This document shows positions 7,071-16,479 of a stretch of 64,000 nt of DNA, in pieces. The translations under genes were made by a program, and so were the position numbers. Where the stretch lies: NCBI GenBank assembly GCA_019747905.1, contig JAIEQG010000038.1, forward strand, positions 1-64,000, in the 5' to 3' direction. The notes beneath the pieces were generated by a model. That model was not told the DNA's origin and did no database searches. It saw only the letters and a list, made by a program, of their open reading frames with translations. Positions within the stretch are counted from its first letter, which is position 1; each line of letters starts with the position of its first letter. Source of the DNA: Burkholderiales bacterium. Lineage in GTDB: Bacteria; Pseudomonadota; Gammaproteobacteria; Burkholderiales; Ga0077523.

Positions 7071-8945
7071 ATGAATTCTTCCACGCCGAATCCGGCGGAA
7101 GGACGCCCGCACCTCCAGGTCGCCGATCCGGCGCGACTGCGGGCTGCTGCCGAAGACGACGCGTGGATGCGTTTTGCCCAGGCCGAGAACGCCGAGGCGT
7201 TCTGCCAGGCCTGGCTGGCGGTCACCTGCATCAAGGCGGGTGCGGCCGACGGGATCCTGGTGCTGGCGCAGCCCGGCGGCGGCGGGTTCGTCCCGGCGGC
7301 GGTCTGGCCCGATACCAAGCGCGACCGTGCCAAGCTCGGCGAGGCCATCGAGCGCGCGATTCACGAGAATGCGCTGATCGCCGTCCCCGCTGGGGAGAAC
7401 GGCGCCAGGTCGCACGTGGCCCAGCCGATCCAGGCGGACGGCACGGTCCTCGGTGCGGTCGCGGTGGACGTGGAAGGACGAGCGGAACGGGAATTGAAGG
7501 CATTGGCCCGTGACCTCGCGTGGGGTGCGGGTTGGCTCGAGGCCCTGCTGCGCCGGCACATGGGGGCGGGCGACGCGGCGGCGGCTGCGAGATTGCGACG
7601 GGTGTTCGACGTGTTCAGCGCTGCGCTGGAACACCACGGTTTCGTGCCGGCGGCGACCGCCACGGCGACCGAGCTTGCATCTTTGCTCGACTGCGACCGG
7701 GTGTCGCTCGGCATTCAGCGCGGCAAGCGTTCGCAGGTGAAGGCGCTGTCGCACACCGTCCAGTTCGAGAAGAATGCGGAGCTGACCCGCGCCATCGAGA
7801 CCGCGATGGACGAAGCGGTCGACCAGAGGACGCGCCTGGTGTGGCCGGCCGAGGAGGGCGTCGAGGGTCACGTCCTGCGCGCTCACGAGAAGCTCGCACA
7901 GATTCACGGGTCGGCAGCGGTGTTGACCATACCGCTCACGCGCATGGGCGAAGGTGTCGGGGCCCTGTGTCTGGAACGCAGCCGCCCGTTCACGCATGAA
8001 GACATCGAACTGGCGGACGGTCTCGCGGCGCTGCTCGGCCCGTTGACCGAGATCCAGCGCGAGGCGGACCGTGGTCCGGCGGCGCGCACATGGGAAGCGA
8101 TGAAGGCGCTCTGGTTCCGTTTCTTCGGTCCGGGCCATGTCGCCTGGAAGCTTGCCGGCATCATCGTCGCGGTGGTCACGCTGTTCTTCACTTTCGCCAC
8201 GGGGACGTACCGCGTTGCCGCGGACACCAAGGTCGAGGGCTCGATCCAGCGGGCGCTGGCGGCGCCCTTCGACGGCTACGTCGGCGAAGCCGCCAAGCGT
8301 CCGGGCGACGTGGTGAAGGAAGGCGAAGTCGTCGCCCGCCTCGAGGATCGCGACCTGCAACTGGAGCGCATGAAGCTTTCAGCCAAGCGCGAGCAGCTCA
8401 CCAAGCAGTATCGCGAAGCGCTCGCCAACCATGAACGTGCGGACATCCGCGTCATCGGCTCCCAGGTGGAGCAGGCCGAGGCGGAGCTCGCCATCGTGGA
8501 AGAGAAGCTCGCGCGCACCGCCATCGCCGCGCCGTTCGACGGCGTCGTGGTGAGCGGCGATCTCACGCAGAAACTGGGGGCCCCGGTGCAGCGCGGCGAC
8601 GTGCTGTTCGAGATTGCACCTCTGGAGGATTACCGCGTGGTGCTGAAGGTGGACGAGCGCGACATCCGCGACGTGGCCGTGGGCCAGAAGGGCGAACTGG
8701 TGTTGCAGTCGATGCCCTCGCAGAGGCAGCCGATCACCGTGGCGCGGGTCACGCCGGTGAGCACGCCGGAGGACGGGCGCAACTATTTCCGCGTGGAAGC
8801 GAAGCTCGATCGCGGCATCGAACGGCTGCGCCCCGGGATGGAAGGGGTGGGCAAGGTGAGCGTGGGTGACCGCAAGCTGATCTGGATCTGGACGCGATAC
8901 CTGCTGGATTGGGTGCGGTTGCAGGTGTGGTCGCTGGTGCCCTAG
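7071..8945 (+). CDS. GAF-domain protein fused to a HlyD-type membrane/periplasmic adaptor
   Basis: GAF-like N-terminal half, single TM (LAGIIVAVVTLFFTFATGTYRV), then biotinyl-lipoyl/coiled-coil adaptor (VEGSIQRALAAPFDGYVGEAAKRPGDVVKEGEVVARLEDRDL...TAIAAPFDGVVVSGD). ORF opens at 7011; start ATG 7071. Confidence 0.85.
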   Translation: MNSSTPNPAEGRPHLQVADPARLRAAAEDDAWMRFAQAENAEAFCQAWLAVTCIKAGAADGILVLAQPGGGGFVPAAVWPDTKRDRAKLGEAIERAIHENALIAVPAGENGARSHVAQPIQADGTVLGAVAVDVEGRAERELKALARDLAWGAGWLEALLRRHMGAGDAAAAARLRRVFDVFSAALEHHGFVPAATATATELASLLDCDRVSLGIQRGKRSQVKALSHTVQFEKNAELTRAIETAMDEAVDQRTRLVWPAEEGVEGHVLRAHEKLAQIHGSAAVLTIPLTRMGEGVGALCLERSRPFTHEDIELADGLAALLGPLTEIQREADRGPAARTWEAMKALWFRFFGPGHVAWKLAGIIVAVVTLFFTFATGTYRVAADTKVEGSIQRALAAPFDGYVGEAAKRPGDVVKEGEVVARLEDRDLQLERMKLSAKREQLTKQYREALANHERADIRVIGSQVEQAEAELAIVEEKLARTAIAAPFDGVVVSGDLTQKLGAPVQRGDVLFEIAPLEDYRVVLKVDERDIRDVAVGQKGELVLQSMPSQRQPITVARVTPVSTPEDGRNYFRVEAKLDRGIERLRPGMEGVGKVSVGDRKLIWIWTRYLLDWVRLQVWSLVP

Positions 8946-8976
8946 CGCCGGCGAAAAGGGCAATGCAAAGCTCCAG

Positions 8977-9067
8977 CACGAAGGACACCAAGAACACGAA
9001 GGAGCACGAAGGAAAGGCTGGCAAGCTGCTTGTCGTTCCTTCGAGGCCCTTCGTGTTCTTCGTGTTT
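8977..9067. repeat. Palindromic CACGAAGGA-type dispersed repeat, copy 1
   Basis: CACGAAGGACACCAAGAACACGAAGGAGCACGAAGGAA ... TTCCTTCGAGGCCCTTCGTGTTCTTCGTGTTT, inverted arms; related to 18585-18679. Confidence 0.8.
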
Positions 9068-9096
9068 GAAGCGGTTACCCTGCTACCTCCGGTGCG

Positions 9097-11244
9097 ATGA
9101 GCTCCGAACTACACAGCCCCTCCTGGTACCGTGTCGCTGCGCTCAAGCCGCGGCTGAAGACGCATGCCGAAGTGCACCGCCACCACTACCGCGGGCAGCT
9201 CTGGTACGTGCTGCAGGATCGCGCGTCGCGCCGCATGTATCGCTTCAACCCGGCCGCATGGCAGTTGATCGGGCTGCTGGACGGCGAACGCACCGTTCAG
9301 GAAGCCTGGGATCTCGCCTGCCACCGGCTCGGCGATGACGCACCGACCCAGGAAGAATCGATTCGTCTGCTCGGTCAGCTCCACGGGTCCGATCTGCTGC
9401 AGAGCGATCTTCCGCCCGACGTCGACGAACTGCTGCGCCGCTACGGCAAGCAGCAGAAGGGCAAGTGGTGGCGCAACTTCAAGAACCCGATGTCGATCAA
9501 GCTGCCGTTGATCGACCCCGATCGGATTCTGCGCGCCACCTACGCGTTGTATGCACCGCTCTTCTCGCGGTGGGGGTTCTTCGTGTGGCTCGCACTGGTC
9601 GGGGCTGCGTGCGTCGCCGCGGCCTTTGCCTGGCATGACCTTACCGAGAACCTGTCGGACCGCGTGCTGGCACCTGGCAACCTGCTCACCATGTTCCTGC
9701 TGTTCCCGATCGTGAAGACAGTGCACGAGTTCGGCCATGCGTGCGCGGTGCGCGCCCGGGGCGGCGAAGTGCACGAGATGGGCGTCATGTTCCTCGTGTT
9801 CCTGCCGGTACCCTACGTCGACGCTTCGGCCTCGTCGGCCTTCCGCAGCAAGTGGGAACGGTTCGTCGTCGGCGGCGCCGGCATGATGGCGGAACTGGCA
9901 TTGGCGGCGATCGCTATGTTCGTCTGGCTCAATGTCGAGCCGGGACTGGTGCGTGCGATCGCCTTCAACGTGATGCTGATCGCCGGCATCTCCACGGTAC
10001 TGTTCAACGGCAATCCGCTGCTGCGCTACGACGGCTACTACATGCTGGCCGATCTGATCGAGATTCCCAACCTCGGACCGCGGGGAAACAAGTACGTGCT
10101 CTACCTCATCAACCGGTACGCTTTCGGTGTTCGCGAACTGCATGCACCGGAGGCGACCGACGGCGAAAAGCGCTGGTTCGTCGGCTACACCATCGCGGCA
10201 ACGGTCTATCGCCTCTTCATCACGTTCGCGATCATCCTGTTCATCGCCGGCGAGTATTTCGTGATCGGCGTCTTGCTCGCCATCTGGGCCGGCTTCTCGT
10301 CGATCGTCCTGCCGATCGGCAAGGGCATCGCGCACCTCACGTCGGGCAAGACCCTGCGGCGGCGGCGGCAGCGTGCCTGGGCAGTGGCCGGAACGACGAC
10401 GGTCGTCCTGCTGGGAGCTTTCCTCTTCGTGCCGTTTCCGGTTTGGACTCGCACCGAAGGCGTGCTGTGGGTGCCGGAGCAATCGGTCGTGCGCGCCGGT
10501 GCCGACGGCTTCGTCACGCGTATTGCCACTGTTCCGGGCACCAGCGTGGACGCCGGCGTCACGCTGATCGAGATCGAGGATCCGCTCCTGGCGCCCCAGG
10601 AGCGGCTGCTCGAAGCGCGGCTGGAAGAACTCGATTTCAAGCAACGCGCGCTGCAGTTGGATGCGCGCGTGCAGGCCGGCATGACACGGGACGAGATCGC
10701 CTACACGGAAAAGGAACTCAAGCGCGTACGCGAGCGGCTGGCCGGGCTCACCGTCACGGCACCGTCCGCAGGTCGCTTCGTGCTGGCGAACCCCAGCGAC
10801 ATGCCGCTGAGGTTCGTGCGTCGCGGCGAGCAACTGGGTTTCGTGGCGCCGCCGTCGGAGCGCATCGTGCGCGTGATCGTGCGGCAGGACGACGTCGACT
10901 ACGTGCGCAGCCACACTCGGTCGATCGAAGTGAAGCTCACCGAGCGTGTCGCCGAGACTCTGACCGCGTCGGTGATCCGGGAAGTGCCGGCGGCTTCGGG
11001 TGAACTGCCGAGCCTTGCGTTGTCGGACCGCGGCGGCGGGTCGATCCCGCTCGATCCGCGCAAGACCGACAGGCCGCTCGCGCTCGAGCCGGTGTTCCAC
11101 TTCGAGTTGCGGCTGCCGCCCAACACTGCCGACCTGCACATCGGCGGGCGTGTGTTCGTCCGCTTCGATCACGATGCCGAGCCGCTCGCGGCACAGACCT
11201 TTCGATCGGTGCGGCGCCTCTTCCTGAAGCGGTTCAGTGTCTAG
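9097..11244 (+). CDS. M50-type (site-2 protease family) membrane protein with PqqD-like N-terminus and HlyD-like C-terminus
   Basis: N-term WYVLQDRASRRMYRFNPAAWQLIGLLDGERTVQEAWDL (PqqD-like); HEFGHA and NPLLRYDGYYMLADL metalloprotease motifs in TM domain; C-terminal lipoyl/coiled-coil region. Confidence 0.87.
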   Translation: MSSELHSPSWYRVAALKPRLKTHAEVHRHHYRGQLWYVLQDRASRRMYRFNPAAWQLIGLLDGERTVQEAWDLACHRLGDDAPTQEESIRLLGQLHGSDLLQSDLPPDVDELLRRYGKQQKGKWWRNFKNPMSIKLPLIDPDRILRATYALYAPLFSRWGFFVWLALVGAACVAAAFAWHDLTENLSDRVLAPGNLLTMFLLFPIVKTVHEFGHACAVRARGGEVHEMGVMFLVFLPVPYVDASASSAFRSKWERFVVGGAGMMAELALAAIAMFVWLNVEPGLVRAIAFNVMLIAGISTVLFNGNPLLRYDGYYMLADLIEIPNLGPRGNKYVLYLINRYAFGVRELHAPEATDGEKRWFVGYTIAATVYRLFITFAIILFIAGEYFVIGVLLAIWAGFSSIVLPIGKGIAHLTSGKTLRRRRQRAWAVAGTTTVVLLGAFLFVPFPVWTRTEGVLWVPEQSVVRAGADGFVTRIATVPGTSVDAGVTLIEIEDPLLAPQERLLEARLEELDFKQRALQLDARVQAGMTRDEIAYTEKELKRVRERLAGLTVTAPSAGRFVLANPSDMPLRFVRRGEQLGFVAPPSERIVRVIVRQDDVDYVRSHTRSIEVKLTERVAETLTASVIREVPAASGELPSLALSDRGGGSIPLDPRKTDRPLALEPVFHFELRLPPNTADLHIGGRVFVRFDHDAEPLAAQTFRSVRRLFLKRFSV

Positions 11245-13201
11245 TCTTACCCAGATCCTCGGTCACGGCTTCTATCCGGAGAAGCTCGAACCACGCGAGA
11301 ACTGGCTGGAACGCACGGCACGCCGCCCCGCGCTTTGGCTCGAGCGGATGCAGTCGATGCGCAAGGGCCGCTTCGATGCCTTCATCGCCGCCGTCAACGC
11401 GGCGGGGCCGCAATACGACGAGCTCGCGCTCGAAGCGTTGCGGGCGCGGGCCATGCAGCTGCGGCCGCAACTGAGACGCGATGGGTTCATCGATCCCCTG
11501 GTGGTGCAGGCGTTCGCCATCGTGCGCGCTGCCGCCCGGCACACGCTCGGTGTCCGCCACTACGATGTGCAGCTGGCAGGCGGCTGGATCCTCCTGTCGG
11601 GCCGCGTCGCCGAGATGGAAACAGGTGAAGGCAAGACGCTGACCGCCACTCTGGCCGCCGCGACCGCTGCGCTCGGTGGCTGGCCTACGCACGTAGTGAC
11701 CGTGAACGACTACCTCGCCGCACGCGACGCCGAGGAGATGGGGCCGCTGTACCGCTCGCTCGGCCTCACCGTCGGCTGCGTCACCCAGGATGTCGCCCTG
11801 CCCGATCGACCCGCCCAATACCGAAACGACATCACGTATTGCACCAACAAGGACGTCACTTTCGACTACCTGCGCGATCGCATGAAGCTGAAAGGGCGGC
11901 CGCGCGCATTGCGCTACGCGGTCGACAAGGTCACGGGTGCCGGCGGCGACAGCGATCTCACCTTGCGCGGATTGTCTTTCGCGATCGTCGACGAGGTCGA
12001 CAGCGTTCTGGTGGACGAAGCGCGCACGCCGCTCATCATTTCCGGCGACACCGGTGATTCGGGCCTCGAGCGCCTGTACCGCGAAGCGCTCGGCCTCGCA
12101 GGGCAACTCGTGCGTGACGAGGATTTCGTGCTCGAGCATCACCAGACCAGCATCCGTATCACCGATGCCGGCAAACAGCGATTGAAGGAGCTTGCCGCCA
12201 ACATGCGTGGCTTGTGGACCGGCCCCAACCGGCGCGAGGAACTGGTGAAGCAGGCGCTGTCGGCAACCCACCAGTACCAGCGCGACAAGCACTACCTGGT
12301 GGAAGAGGGCAAGGTGGTGATCGTGGACGAGTACACCGGCCGCACCATGGCGGACCGCTCATGGGAGCGCGGACTGCATCAGTTGATCGAGGTGAAGGAG
12401 GGCTGCGAGCTCACCGGCCAGCGCGAGACCCTGGCGCGCATCTCCTACCAGCGCTTCTTCCGGCGCTATCTCCGATTGTCCGGCATGACCGGCACGGCGA
12501 AGGAGATCTCGGCCGAACTGTGGGCCGTGTATCGCCTCAAGGTGACGCGCGTGCCGACCCGCAAGCCCGTGCTGCGCACGATCGCGCCACCGGTGCTGCT
12601 GCCGACGCTGGAAGCGAAATACGCTGCGGCGCTTGAATCGATCCGCCGCGAGCACGAGCGGGGTCGGCCGGTTCTGGTGGGCACCCGCACCGTGGAAGGA
12701 TCGGAGCGCGTTGCTGCGCTGCTGACCGCAGCCGGACTGGCGCATCGTGTGCTCAACGCGCGACAGGACAAGGAGGAAGCGGAGATCGTCGCCGACGCCG
12801 GACAACCCGGTCGCATCACCGTGGCGACCAACATGGCGGGTCGCGGTACCGACATCAAGTTGAGCCCCGAGTCGCTCGCGGCCGGCGGCCTGCACGTGGT
12901 CACGACCGAGATGAACGAAGCGGGCCGTATCGACCGCCAGCTTTTCGGCCGCTGCGCGCGGCAGGGCGACCCCGGGAGCTGCGAGGTGTTCGTGAGCCTC
13001 GAGGACGAACTGATCCAGCGCTACGGCAGCTTCTTCCACAAGCTGCTCGGGCGCGCGCTGTCGGATGCGAATGCCGGACGGCTGCTCTTCAGCCTCGCGC
13101 AGAAGCGCGCCGAGCAGGTCCACTACATGATGCGCAAGGAAGTGCTCGAGATGGACGACTACCTCGGGGATCTACTGGCGTTTGCGGGAAGGGCGGAGTG
13201 A
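11237..13201 (+). CDS. Accessory SecA-like ATPase lacking most of the C-terminal domains
   Basis: EMETGEGKTLTA Walker A, VTVNDYLAARDAEEMGPLY, DEVDSVLVDEARTPLIISG, TNMAGRGTDIKL, GRIDRQLFGRCARQGDPGSCEVFVSLEDELI; ends after RKEVLEMDDYLGDLLAFAGRAE. GTG start overlaps the M50 gene by 8 bp. Confidence 0.9.
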   Translation: MSSLTQILGHGFYPEKLEPRENWLERTARRPALWLERMQSMRKGRFDAFIAAVNAAGPQYDELALEALRARAMQLRPQLRRDGFIDPLVVQAFAIVRAAARHTLGVRHYDVQLAGGWILLSGRVAEMETGEGKTLTATLAAATAALGGWPTHVVTVNDYLAARDAEEMGPLYRSLGLTVGCVTQDVALPDRPAQYRNDITYCTNKDVTFDYLRDRMKLKGRPRALRYAVDKVTGAGGDSDLTLRGLSFAIVDEVDSVLVDEARTPLIISGDTGDSGLERLYREALGLAGQLVRDEDFVLEHHQTSIRITDAGKQRLKELAANMRGLWTGPNRREELVKQALSATHQYQRDKHYLVEEGKVVIVDEYTGRTMADRSWERGLHQLIEVKEGCELTGQRETLARISYQRFFRRYLRLSGMTGTAKEISAELWAVYRLKVTRVPTRKPVLRTIAPPVLLPTLEAKYAAALESIRREHERGRPVLVGTRTVEGSERVAALLTAAGLAHRVLNARQDKEEAEIVADAGQPGRITVATNMAGRGTDIKLSPESLAAGGLHVVTTEMNEAGRIDRQLFGRCARQGDPGSCEVFVSLEDELIQRYGSFFHKLLGRALSDANAGRLLFSLAQKRAEQVHYMMRKEVLEMDDYLGDLLAFAGRAE

Positions 13202-13221
13202 TCTGGGGGGCGAGGGAACAC

Positions 13222-13301
13222 CAGGGACTAGGGGCTAGGTAACATCGGGAGTCTCGGCATCCAACCCTAGTCCCTAGTCCCTAGTCCCTAGCCCCTCATC
13301 A
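13222..13301. repeat. CCCTAGT tandem/inverted short repeat between convergent genes
   Basis: AGGGACTAGGGGCTAGG ... CCCTAGTCCCTAGTCCCTAGTCCCTAGCCCCT; AGGGGCTAGG pairs with CCTAGCCCCT. Confidence 0.75.
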
Positions 13302-13302
13302 T

Positions 13303-13809
13303 TCACATATCGTGCTGCTGCGCCTTCGGCTGTGTAGGTGGCGGTGGCCCCGGCGGAACGACGGAGCCCGGTGCCGCAGGATTGGCTGGCGCGGGCACTG
13401 GCGCCGCGCCGCGCGCCGCGCGGATCACCATCTGCACCTTTCGTTCTTCGGTCCCCTTGGTGTTGTCGAACACCACGTAGTAGTTGCCCGACTCCGGCAT
13501 GACGAGTGCGAAGGAGAGGCGGCGCTCGACCGGTGCGGTGAACACCGGTTCCTCCGGATTGGGATAGCGCTTGAAGTCGCTTTCAGTGAGAAACGTCACC
13601 ACGACGCGGCCGGTGGCCTGGACGGCAACGGCGATCTGCGCGTCCTTCGGCAGGTTGCGCAAACGCAGCGTCTTGTGCGTGCCGGCAGGGACGGTGGCAG
13701 TCAGTGCCGCCTGATTCTGTTGCGCAGCCACGGGCGCAACTGCTGTCGCTGCGAACAGCGCGACGGTCAGCAACACCGACCGCATCACTTCGGGAATTTC
13801 ACGCGACAC
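13303..13809 (-). CDS. Secreted hypothetical protein with Pro-rich C-terminus
   Basis: Signal peptide MRSVLLTVALFAATAVAPVAAQQNQ; C-term PAAPGSVVPPGPPPPTQPKAQQHDM; overlaps the upstream HlyD gene. Confidence 0.65.
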   Translation of the reverse strand: MSREIPEVMRSVLLTVALFAATAVAPVAAQQNQAALTATVPAGTHKTLRLRNLPKDAQIAVAVQATGRVVVTFLTESDFKRYPNPEEPVFTAPVERRLSFALVMPESGNYYVVFDNTKGTEERKVQMVIRAARGAAPVPAPANPAAPGSVVPPGPPPPTQPKAQQHDM

Positions 13810-14636
13810 TTCGCGCCTGCCGGGATCTGCTGGTTGGCGTTGGGCAATTCGAGGCGCACGCCGAACGTACCACTGGCTGCATCGATGACGCGATCCACGA
13901 GAACGACCACCGCGGTGTATTCGCCGCCGGGCGCTTCGGGCGCGACCTTGGCGCGGGCGCCGACCTTTATCCTGCCGTAGAGGTTCGCCGGGAGGATCAC
14001 TTCGACGTTGAGAGGGTCCACCTCGGCGAGCTTCAGGATCGGGTTCTTGACGTTGGCGGTGGCGAACTCGCCGCTCGACAGGTAGCGCTCGATCACGACG
14101 CCGTTGAACGGGCTGCGGATGGTGCGCAGCTTGACCACTTCCTCGGCCCGTTGCATCTCGAGTTCGTTCAGCTTCTGGTTCTCGCGCGCTTCCTTCAGCT
14201 CCGATTCCGCCAGTTCGCGCTGGGTGCGTGCTTCGTCCAGCGCGCCGGCCGAGACGAACTTCTGCTTGTAGAGCTCTATGGCGCGCTGCTCCTTCTTGAC
14301 GGCGAAGTCGAGCCGGGAGGCAGAGGCCTCGAGCGGCCCCTTCATTGTCGCCTTGGAGCGGGCCAGCGCAAGTGCCGCCCGTTCCGGACCGGATTCGAGA
14401 GTCACGACCACCTGGCCCTTGCGGACAAAGTCGCCACGGCGGACGTGGACCTGCTCGATCAAGCCTTCGATCGGGCTGCGGATCTCGGCGGTGGTGCGGG
14501 CCTCGACGAGGCAGTCGTATTCATCCGCCAGTTCGGCGGCGCCGGCACTCGCACTCGAGGCGAGAACCATCGCCAGCACCGTCAGAGCAATTCGTTGAGC
14601 ATTCATACGGCAGGGTACCAAGTGAGGCCGGCGCAT
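13785..14636 (-). CDS. HlyD/RND-type periplasmic adaptor subunit
   Basis: AEIRSPIEGLIEQVHVRRGDFVRKGQVVVTLESGPERAAL... RTIRSPFNGVVIERYLSSGEF; signal peptide; start probably at internal ATG (MNAQRIALT). Confidence 0.88.
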   Translation of the reverse strand: MRRPHLVPCRMNAQRIALTVLAMVLASSASAGAAELADEYDCLVEARTTAEIRSPIEGLIEQVHVRRGDFVRKGQVVVTLESGPERAALALARSKATMKGPLEASASRLDFAVKKEQRAIELYKQKFVSAGALDEARTQRELAESELKEARENQKLNELEMQRAEEVVKLRTIRSPFNGVVIERYLSSGEFATANVKNPILKLAEVDPLNVEVILPANLYGRIKVGARAKVAPEAPGGEYTAVVVLVDRVIDAASGTFGVRLELPNANQQIPAGAKCRVKFPK

Positions 14637-14893
14637 TCTGGCGAGCCCGAAATCGATTGTAAAGGCACGGAAATAAAAAGTTTTTCGAAATCCGGTGACA
14701 CCGCGGAGCGATCCGAGGAAACGCGGCGGCGCATCCCCGGGTCTGCAAGCAAGTATCGTCGTCGGTCGGTGTGCCGCACGCCCAAGGGGTTCCCCTGGCC
14801 GCCCGTTCGACCCCGAAACGCTGCCGGTTCCGTTTCATCCTGCAACAACCCGGAACTGCGCTCCGGTCCTGGCGTTCGCTACACTCTCGCGCC

Positions 14894-15472
14894 ATGACGG
14901 ACGCGGATCCGACCGACGAGGCGCTGATGCTGCGTTATCGCGACGACGGCGATGCCGGGGCGTTCGCGATTCTCTACGAACGCCACCGCGGCGGGCTGTA
15001 CCGCTTCTGCCTGCGCATGGGCCGGGATGCGGCACGGGCCGAGGAGGTGTTTCAGGATGCCTGGATGAATCTCATCAACGCGCGCGAACGCTATCGCGTC
15101 GAAGCGCGCTTCAAGACGTTTCTTTATCAGATTGCGCACAATCGCATGATCGACCTGCTGCGCCGCGACGGCGCCGGCACCGTTTCCCTCGACGACGAAG
15201 CCGGCGAAGCCATCGCGGCGAGCCTGGCGGCACCGGTGCGCGAGCAGCCGGAGGCAGCCGTGGCGATGAAGCGCCGGCTCGAGCGCGTGGCCGATGCCGT
15301 CGAGCGCCTGCCGGCCGCGCAGCGTGAGGCTTTCCTGCTGCACGAGGAGGGTGAACTCACTCTGGAGGAGATCGCCGAGTTGACGGGTGTCGGGCGAGAG
15401 ACGGCCAAGAGTCGCTTGCGCTACGCGCTCGTTCGCCTGCGTGCGGACCTTGCCGGGGAAGCGGAGCCGTGA
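14894..15472 (+). CDS. ECF-type RNA polymerase sigma factor
   Basis: LYERHRGGLYRFCLRMGRDAARAEEVFQDAWMNLI...RFKTFLYQIAHNRMIDLLRR...LTLEEIAELTGVGRETAKSRLRYALVRLR. Confidence 0.92.
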   Translation: MTDADPTDEALMLRYRDDGDAGAFAILYERHRGGLYRFCLRMGRDAARAEEVFQDAWMNLINARERYRVEARFKTFLYQIAHNRMIDLLRRDGAGTVSLDDEAGEAIAASLAAPVREQPEAAVAMKRRLERVADAVERLPAAQREAFLLHEEGELTLEEIAELTGVGRETAKSRLRYALVRLRADLAGEAEP

Positions 15473-16479
15473 CGACCGATTCGGACCGCGAACTCGCCGA
15501 ACTGCTGGCGGATACGGCTGCCGTGCGGCAACGGCTGCGTGCCGAGTCCGCGGCTGAGGAGCCGCCGCCGCACGTCGACGCGGCGATTCTCGCTGCCGCG
15601 CGGCGCGCGGTCGATGCTCGACCGACGCTGGTCGGCCGGTCGCCGTGGCGGCGCTGGCAGGTGCCGCTCGCCGCGGCCGCGGTACTCGTAGTGGCTACCA
15701 GTCTTTCGCTGATGGTGGACCGGCGCAGCGAGCCCGGTTTGCCGAAGCCATCGCAGGAAAGCGGCCCCGACGCGTCGTCACCGGGCGTGCAGGCCGAACT
15801 AAGGATGCGTCCACTTCCAGCCGAGGAAGCAGCCACCACCCGGCGGCCCGACAGGCAGGCGCGGGCACTGGAACCGGCAAGCAAGCGTTCGGACGACGCC
15901 AAGACGGCCAAAGACCAGGCGGCGTCTATGGACCTCCAGGGCAAGGCAAAGACGGAGCAACTCGCCGATCGGCTGGAGTCGCCGGCGTCGGTGGCGCGCG
16001 GACCGGGGCCCGCGCCAGCGCCGGTTGCCGATGCCAAGGAAGCCAAGGCGGAGTTTCAGAATCAGGTACTTGCGCCTGCGGATCCCGCAGCCGCCCCGCC
16101 GGTACCGGCGGAGCAGGAGTTGCGGCAAGCGCAGGAATCCACGGCGAGGGCGCGCGAGCACGACGCCGTCGGTGGGATGGATTCCCGCGCCCCGGCTGCG
16201 CCGGCCGCTTCTGCGCCCGCCAGGGCTGCGGCGCCGTCGACCCTGGCCAAGCGTCGGTCGAATCTGAGCAGTGAGGAAGTACTCCGGTTCGCCGAGCGGG
16301 AGCCCGAGCGGGTGCTGGCGGCCATCCGCGAGGAATGGGAGCAAGGCCGCCGCGAGTCAGCACGCGCGATGCTCGCGGAATTCCTGCAAAAACAACCTGG
16401 TTACCCTCTGCCGCCGGACTTTCCTGTGCCTCGACCCGCAGGGGAGCCGCTTAAAGAAAGACCGCTGGAGGGCCGTTAA
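15469..16479 (+). CDS. Putative membrane anti-sigma-like protein with long low-complexity periplasmic region
   Basis: GTG start overlaps sigma stop (GTGA); single TM VPLAAAAVLVVATSLSLMV; Ala/Pro/Lys-rich linker. Confidence 0.6.
   Translation: MTTDSDRELAELLADTAAVRQRLRAESAAEEPPPHVDAAILAAARRAVDARPTLVGRSPWRRWQVPLAAAAVLVVATSLSLMVDRRSEPGLPKPSQESGPDASSPGVQAELRMRPLPAEEAATTRRPDRQARALEPASKRSDDAKTAKDQAASMDLQGKAKTEQLADRLESPASVARGPGPAPAPVADAKEAKAEFQNQVLAPADPAAAPPVPAEQELRQAQESTARAREHDAVGGMDSRAPAAPAASAPARAAAPSTLAKRRSNLSSEEVLRFAEREPERVLAAIREEWEQGRRESARAMLAEFLQKQPGYPLPPDFPVPRPAGEPLKERPLEGR

Follow-up and report, generated by a model that had tools for sequence, protein, structure and literature searches.

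Giant LEPR-XLL proteins as the probable cargo of a widespread SecA-like/M50/HlyD gene module

We analysed a gene module in the first 64,000 nucleotides of contig JAIEQG010000038.1 from a Burkholderiales bacterium (assembly GCA_019747905.1; this whole stretch is referred to as the window). The module encodes a GAF-HlyD adaptor, an M50 membrane protein fused to an HlyD adaptor, a truncated SecA-like ATPase and a second HlyD adaptor. We propose, with a probability of roughly 0.7, that its dedicated role is to export giant proteins bearing an N-terminal LEPR-XLL domain (NCBIfam NF012209), and the link between the module and these giants is strongly supported statistically. The substrate is what is new here. 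The module itself was already known, and the sequence-only reading of the window, which had called it a candidate undescribed system, was mistaken on this point: a set made up of a secondary SecA_DEAD protein and M50/HlyD, GAF/HlyD and HlyD proteins was published from several phyla in 2015 (Kamneva, Poudel & Ward, PMC4452313). Its authors proposed a type-I-like system with the SecA-like protein as the ATPase and the M50 protein as the membrane pore, named no substrate and called the biological role completely unknown. The module in the window matches every feature that they listed: it has a secondary SecA_DEAD protein without most of SecA_SW alongside a housekeeping SecA (a 910-aa frame on another contig) and linked M50/HlyD, GAF/HlyD and HlyD/biotin_lipoyl genes. 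The published module and ours share the four proteins, the loss of the SecA wing and scaffold and a similar taxonomic spread, whereas the substrate, its leader, a function for the RiPP recognition element (RRE; RiPP, ribosomally synthesized and post-translationally modified peptide) and a sister type without SecA are all added here.

A scan of GTDB genomes yielded 79 further loci (Beta-, Gamma- and Alphaproteobacteria, Desulfobacterota, Rokubacteria, Nitrospirota, Myxococcota, Omnitrophota and others). The order GAF-HlyD, M50, SecA-like was kept in ∼70 of the 79, as far as the contig reached, and the HlyD gene usually came after this trio. As the order is retained in many phyla, the linkage suspected from the window is more than chance. 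Clustering of the flanking open reading frames (ORFs) revealed large repeat proteins in 30 loci, TolC-type channels in 18 of 79 (the OEP cluster, whose identity was tested on four members) and DUF3467 proteins in 12; ABC_tran proteins flanked only 5 of the 79 loci and no ABC protein was among the conserved members. The sequence-only reading is partly supported: it had envisaged a dedicated machine in which a SecA-like motor and an M50/HlyD membrane component act on a substrate, and had taken the PqqD-like domain as a clue to peptide recognition. Both ideas fit, as do its parts and their linkage, but the substrate itself was missing from it. In full-length flanks, several giants with a visible N-terminus have LEPRxLLSA/D, that is, the LEPR-XLL domain. 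A LEPR-XLL cargo protein is defined as a large protein that matches NF012209 with >17 bits close to its N-terminal end. The longest LEPR frame was 19,427 aa, and these giants rank among the largest proteins of bacteria.

In 329 Pseudomonadota genomes (Fisher test), LEPR-XLL genes were present in 25 of the 26 genomes that have the SecA-like gene and in 19 of the 303 that lack it (p = 1.6e-24). After collapsing to genera, the figures were 13/14 versus 16/183 (p = 1.2e-11). With a full-length M50 orthologue as the marker the association was 31/33 versus 13/296 (p = 8e-31), and the only LEPR genome devoid of any M50-HlyD protein owed its match to a 64-aa false frame. The result was repeated in a second phylum, that of the Desulfomicrobium genome with locus L044, where LEPR matches occurred in 7/10 genomes with M50-HlyD and in 2/138 without (p = 1.6e-8, or 1.8e-7 when the seed genome was removed); one of the frames there, of 15,080 aa, stops about 2-3 kb short of the M50 gene. 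None of 14 control genomes had a LEPR match at the threshold used. Shared ancestry inflates these p-values, but it does not bear in the same manner on physical adjacency and on pairing within genomes. Of the 56 giants whose frames measure at least 800 aa, 32 had an M50-HlyD gene no more than 20 kb away, while random placement would give 1.6. The usual gap between giant and M50 gene was ∼2 kb, which suits a single GAF-HlyD gene, and in the relatives L002, L005 and L006 (71-74% identity) the giant directly adjoins the second HlyD gene.

The leaders of the giants fell into three classes (LEPRxLLS, LE(D/E/Q/N)RxLLS and LEPR[IVLM][LM][FLY]D(G/A)A), and the M50 proteins into subfamily Ia, to which that of the window belongs, subfamily Ib (29-37% identical to Ia, with a SecA-like protein that was more divergent or not detected) and a distant type II, which lacks SecA and has its genes in the order OEP-HlyD-HlyD-M50. 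Leader class agreed with M50 subtype in 28 of 32 linked pairs (Ia/Ia 12, Ib/Ib 6, II/II 10; 4 mismatched); for type I against type II, the leader/M50 pairing was 21/0/1/10 (p = 1.7e-7). Moreover, in genomes with several systems, such as G006, G014 and G250, every system adjoins a giant of its own leader class. This pairing of leader class with exporter subtype is what a leader-reading receptor predicts.

The leader itself is basic and non-hydrophobic, ends in [LIM]E(P/D/E/Q/N)RxLLS(A/G)(D/E) and is unlike a Sec signal peptide. Its median net charge was +5 over 40 residues and a hydrophobic core was absent from 56 of 59 leaders, which supports a route apart from SecYEG. We also sought a single hydrophobic anchor common to the C-termini of the giants and found none in general, these termini being mostly heterogeneous. 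Two patterns were noticed there post hoc: a [RKPVLIM][IV]xW motif in the last 100 residues of 15/33 type I giants versus 1/33 in the preceding 100 (L172-L214), and an LLxxL pattern ending 5/8 type II giants.

The genome of the window has two LEPR-XLL giants (NF012209 28.4 and 27.9 bits), both outside the window on other contigs. The first (C163:85948, L088-L090) has 11,835 aa with LamG, CARDB, Ig, cadherin and dockerin-like domains, and the second (C141:21916, L091-L092) has 3,449 aa with DUF4347, cadherins and LamG; the domains of both are adhesin-like. Neither GGxGxD nor RTX repeats were found in the two proteins, while some giants of relatives do have RTX-like repeats. A further LEPR frame, of 15,167 aa, accompanies the module in the chemosynthetic gill symbiont of Solemya velesiana (L021/G354). 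Two cultivable, non-pathogenic bacteria also have the module: Ramlibacter paludis XY19 (locus L048), with four LEPR matches, and, according to PMC4452313, Methylobacterium extorquens AM1 (META1p2399-2402).

The candidate receptor for the leader is the M50 protein (9097..11244, plus strand; Pfam PqqD, Peptidase_M50 and HlyD_3), an RRE (PqqD-like)-M50 intramembrane protease-HlyD fusion. In the window its PqqD and M50 Pfam scores lie slightly below the cut-offs; among relatives, Pfam PqqD was found in 38/45 and M50 in 41/45. Its RRE-like domain (9142..9423, plus strand), modelled alone with AlphaFold2 (pLDDT 89.7), shows the bbb-aaa fold that RiPP recognition elements have. In Foldseek, the top six PDB matches of this domain were lasso-peptide RREs complexed with leader peptides; next came a heterocyclase, a sactipeptide enzyme and TglHI. 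The protease site (H210, E211, H214 and D312) is invariant in 45/45 sequences. With the whole model, Foldseek returned HlyD adaptors only, and a PDB sequence search with the protein found nothing. The C-terminal half folds like the MexA/MacA adaptors, so that receptor, protease and conduit would be combined in one chain; about seven predicted helices would place the RRE on the inner side of the membrane and the adaptor on its outer side.

The SecA-like protein (11237..13201, plus strand; Pfam SecA_DEAD, SecA_PP_bind and the SecA P-loop) aligns only to residues 17-603 of Bacillus subtilis SecA, and by Pfam its wing/scaffold domain is reduced to a fragment. The missing remainder comprises the wing, the C-terminal linker and most of the helical scaffold, including the two-helix finger. 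The Walker and motor motifs TGEGKT, DE and GRGTD are invariant in 40 sequences; all SecA/SecA2 models scored below cut-off, and SecY-binding elements were not found. Such a protein could plausibly hold on to a chain and drive it forward, but it would not attach to SecY as SecA usually does.

These observations suggest a mechanism, in which binding and cleavage of the leader, the pore, the coupling of the motor and the energy and direction of transport are all inferred. The giant would enter the system by its N-terminal basic, non-hydrophobic LEPR leader, which the RRE domain of the M50-HlyD protein would bind on the cytoplasmic side. The truncated SecA-like ATPase, with its motor and peptide-clamp domains kept and its SecY-contacting parts lost, would push the chain through the M50 membrane core. 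The fused HlyD part and the two other HlyD adaptors, one of them with a cytoplasmic GAF sensor, would then carry it to a TolC-type outer-membrane pore, whose gene adjoins the module in some genomes and lies elsewhere in the genome studied here. The M50 site, which is fully conserved, probably cuts the leader.

Like type I secretion (HlyB-HlyD-TolC), such a system would combine HlyD-type adaptors and a TolC-type channel with one-step export of giant repeat proteins, but it would draw its energy from a SecA-like protein instead of an ABC ATPase, and the signal proposed for its cargo is N-terminal rather than C-terminal. With accessory Sec (SecA2) it would share a second SecA-type ATPase for large surface proteins; the SecA-like protein of the module, however, lacks SecY-contacting elements, is partnered by M50-HlyD and is found in Gram-negatives. 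The daptide protein MpaP, in which an RRE is fused to a site-2 protease and which removes leaders from precursors with a conserved ELExMEAP motif (PMC10036551), likewise has its RRE N-terminal to an intramembrane metalloprotease and acts on substrates with a short conserved LE-containing leader motif. The module protein has this architecture of an N-terminal RRE and an HExxH membrane protease, and the closest NCBIfam family of its RRE+M50 part was daptide_HExxH (NF041824; 3e-45, 154.9 bits against a cut-off of 300 bits). It differs in being fused to an HlyD adaptor and in the size of the proposed cargo, LEPR-XLL proteins of thousands of residues. On balance, we lean slightly towards a distinct Gram-negative secretion class, in which a RiPP-type domain fused to an intramembrane protease and an adaptor reads an N-terminal LEPR leader, and a SecA-derived motor replaces the ABC transporter in one branch while the other has no recognised motor.

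Several points weigh against the module being an exporter of LEPR-XLL giants. A SecA-like gene is absent from the type II sister (OEP-HlyD-HlyD-M50, with LEPR[IVLM][LM][FLY]D(G/A)A giants), so that a motor role of the SecA-like protein is not universal; a conserved ATPase was sought at type II loci and none was found. Protein pores are not known to be formed by site-2 proteases. The E-values of the RRE fold matches are modest (best 1e-3), LEPR matches are lacking in 8 of 28 other module genomes (fragmented metagenome-assembled genomes (MAGs), and a short motif), neither giant of the genome studied lies near the module, and that genome also has an HlyB-type ABC exporter. Finally, the case is computational throughout. 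As a separate observation, the SecA-less exporters at L097-L107 stand beside LEPRxLFDGA giants without a visible energy source.

An alternative that we consider unlikely is that the module serves only in the maturation or regulation of the giants, with the M50 protein reading and cutting the LEPR leader and transport being left to SecYEG or to a classical type I ABC exporter. The invariant protease site, the daptide protease precedent (PMC10036551) and the presence of an HlyB-type ABC protein and a full SecA in the genome speak for it. However, a locus with three HlyD adaptors, an ATPase and frequently also a TolC gene would be excessive for maturation, the leaders are not Sec-like and the giants of this genome are without RTX repeats. 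Less probable still is the 2015 proposal in a form where the LEPR giants are only part of the cargo of a type-I-like exporter with unspecified or several substrates (PMC4452313): module genome G077 and the 8/28 MAGs without a LEPR match would suit it, but co-occurrence is near-total and the pairing of leader and exporter types is tight. We regard RiPP-like maturation or export of a small peptide as very improbable in spite of the RRE domain and the daptide-type protease, as the daptide score stays below its cut-off and no tailoring enzymes are among the conserved neighbours. A small RiPP substrate was itself rejected, with no conserved short precursor in the flanks among ORFs of at least 90 aa (smaller ORFs were not clustered). 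An indirect association, with module and giants both being traits of large-genome environmental bacteria, could draw on the ancestry-inflated p-values but is scarcely credible given the physical adjacency, the matched subtypes within G006, G014 and G250 and the replication in a second phylum.

The remaining features of the locus surround this core. All five ORFs that had been read from the window are present, two of them with refined starts. The conserved first gene, GAF-HlyD (7071..8945, plus strand; Pfam GAF 1e-13, HlyD_3 3e-21), encodes a GAF region at the N-terminus, a single transmembrane helix (residues ∼357-375) and a periplasmic HlyD part. The M50 and SecA-like genes overlap by 8 bp as reported (stop TAG at 11242-11244, start GTG at 11237). 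Both minus-strand genes exist but probably start further in than first thought. For the second HlyD adaptor (13785..14603; Pfam HlyD), the fourth gene of the published module, a start at 14603 (MNAQRIALTVLAMVLASSASAGA, with a signal peptide) is more likely than one at 14636; the small secreted protein (13303..13785; weak GOLD/DUF1883-like Pfam match) probably starts at 13785 instead of 13809, with an ATG that has one base in common with the adaptor stop (TGATG), and lies near the module in only about ten relatives. A promoter and terminator scan gave nothing above chance level. As had been stated, the window contains no OEP/TolC gene and no type I ABC ATPase (TIGR03375 profile for ABC), while no search aimed at RND pumps was made; just beyond it on the same contig are an OEP gene at C157:67.9 kb and the HlyB-type ABC gene (TIGR01846, 992 bits) at 81.8 kb (L219).

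Next to the second HlyD gene, an ECF sigma factor gene and an unnamed gene that overlaps it in an anti-sigma-like position (14771-16479) occupy the site of the giant gene in L002, L005 and L006; this pair is kept only in L001 and L033. The DUF3467 proteins (∼118 aa; e.g. L024:4062-4418, L029:5402-5758 and L067:5514-5891) mostly lie directly upstream of GAF-HlyD and might be chaperones. In one locus a SapC-family protein (PF07277, L094:6703-7596) lies between the giant and GAF-HlyD.

In the literature searched, which did not include subscription journals or NCBI family notes, no paper ties LEPR-XLL to SecA/M50/HlyD; only two mentions of the domain were found, both in passing and neither with a named exporter. 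Little is understood of the way in which bacteria export proteins of 10,000-20,000 residues, and the cargo assignment makes a widespread locus of 'completely unknown' function testable. If it is true, RiPP-type leader recognition would extend to the secretion of giant proteins, and a SecA motor would work apart from SecYEG.

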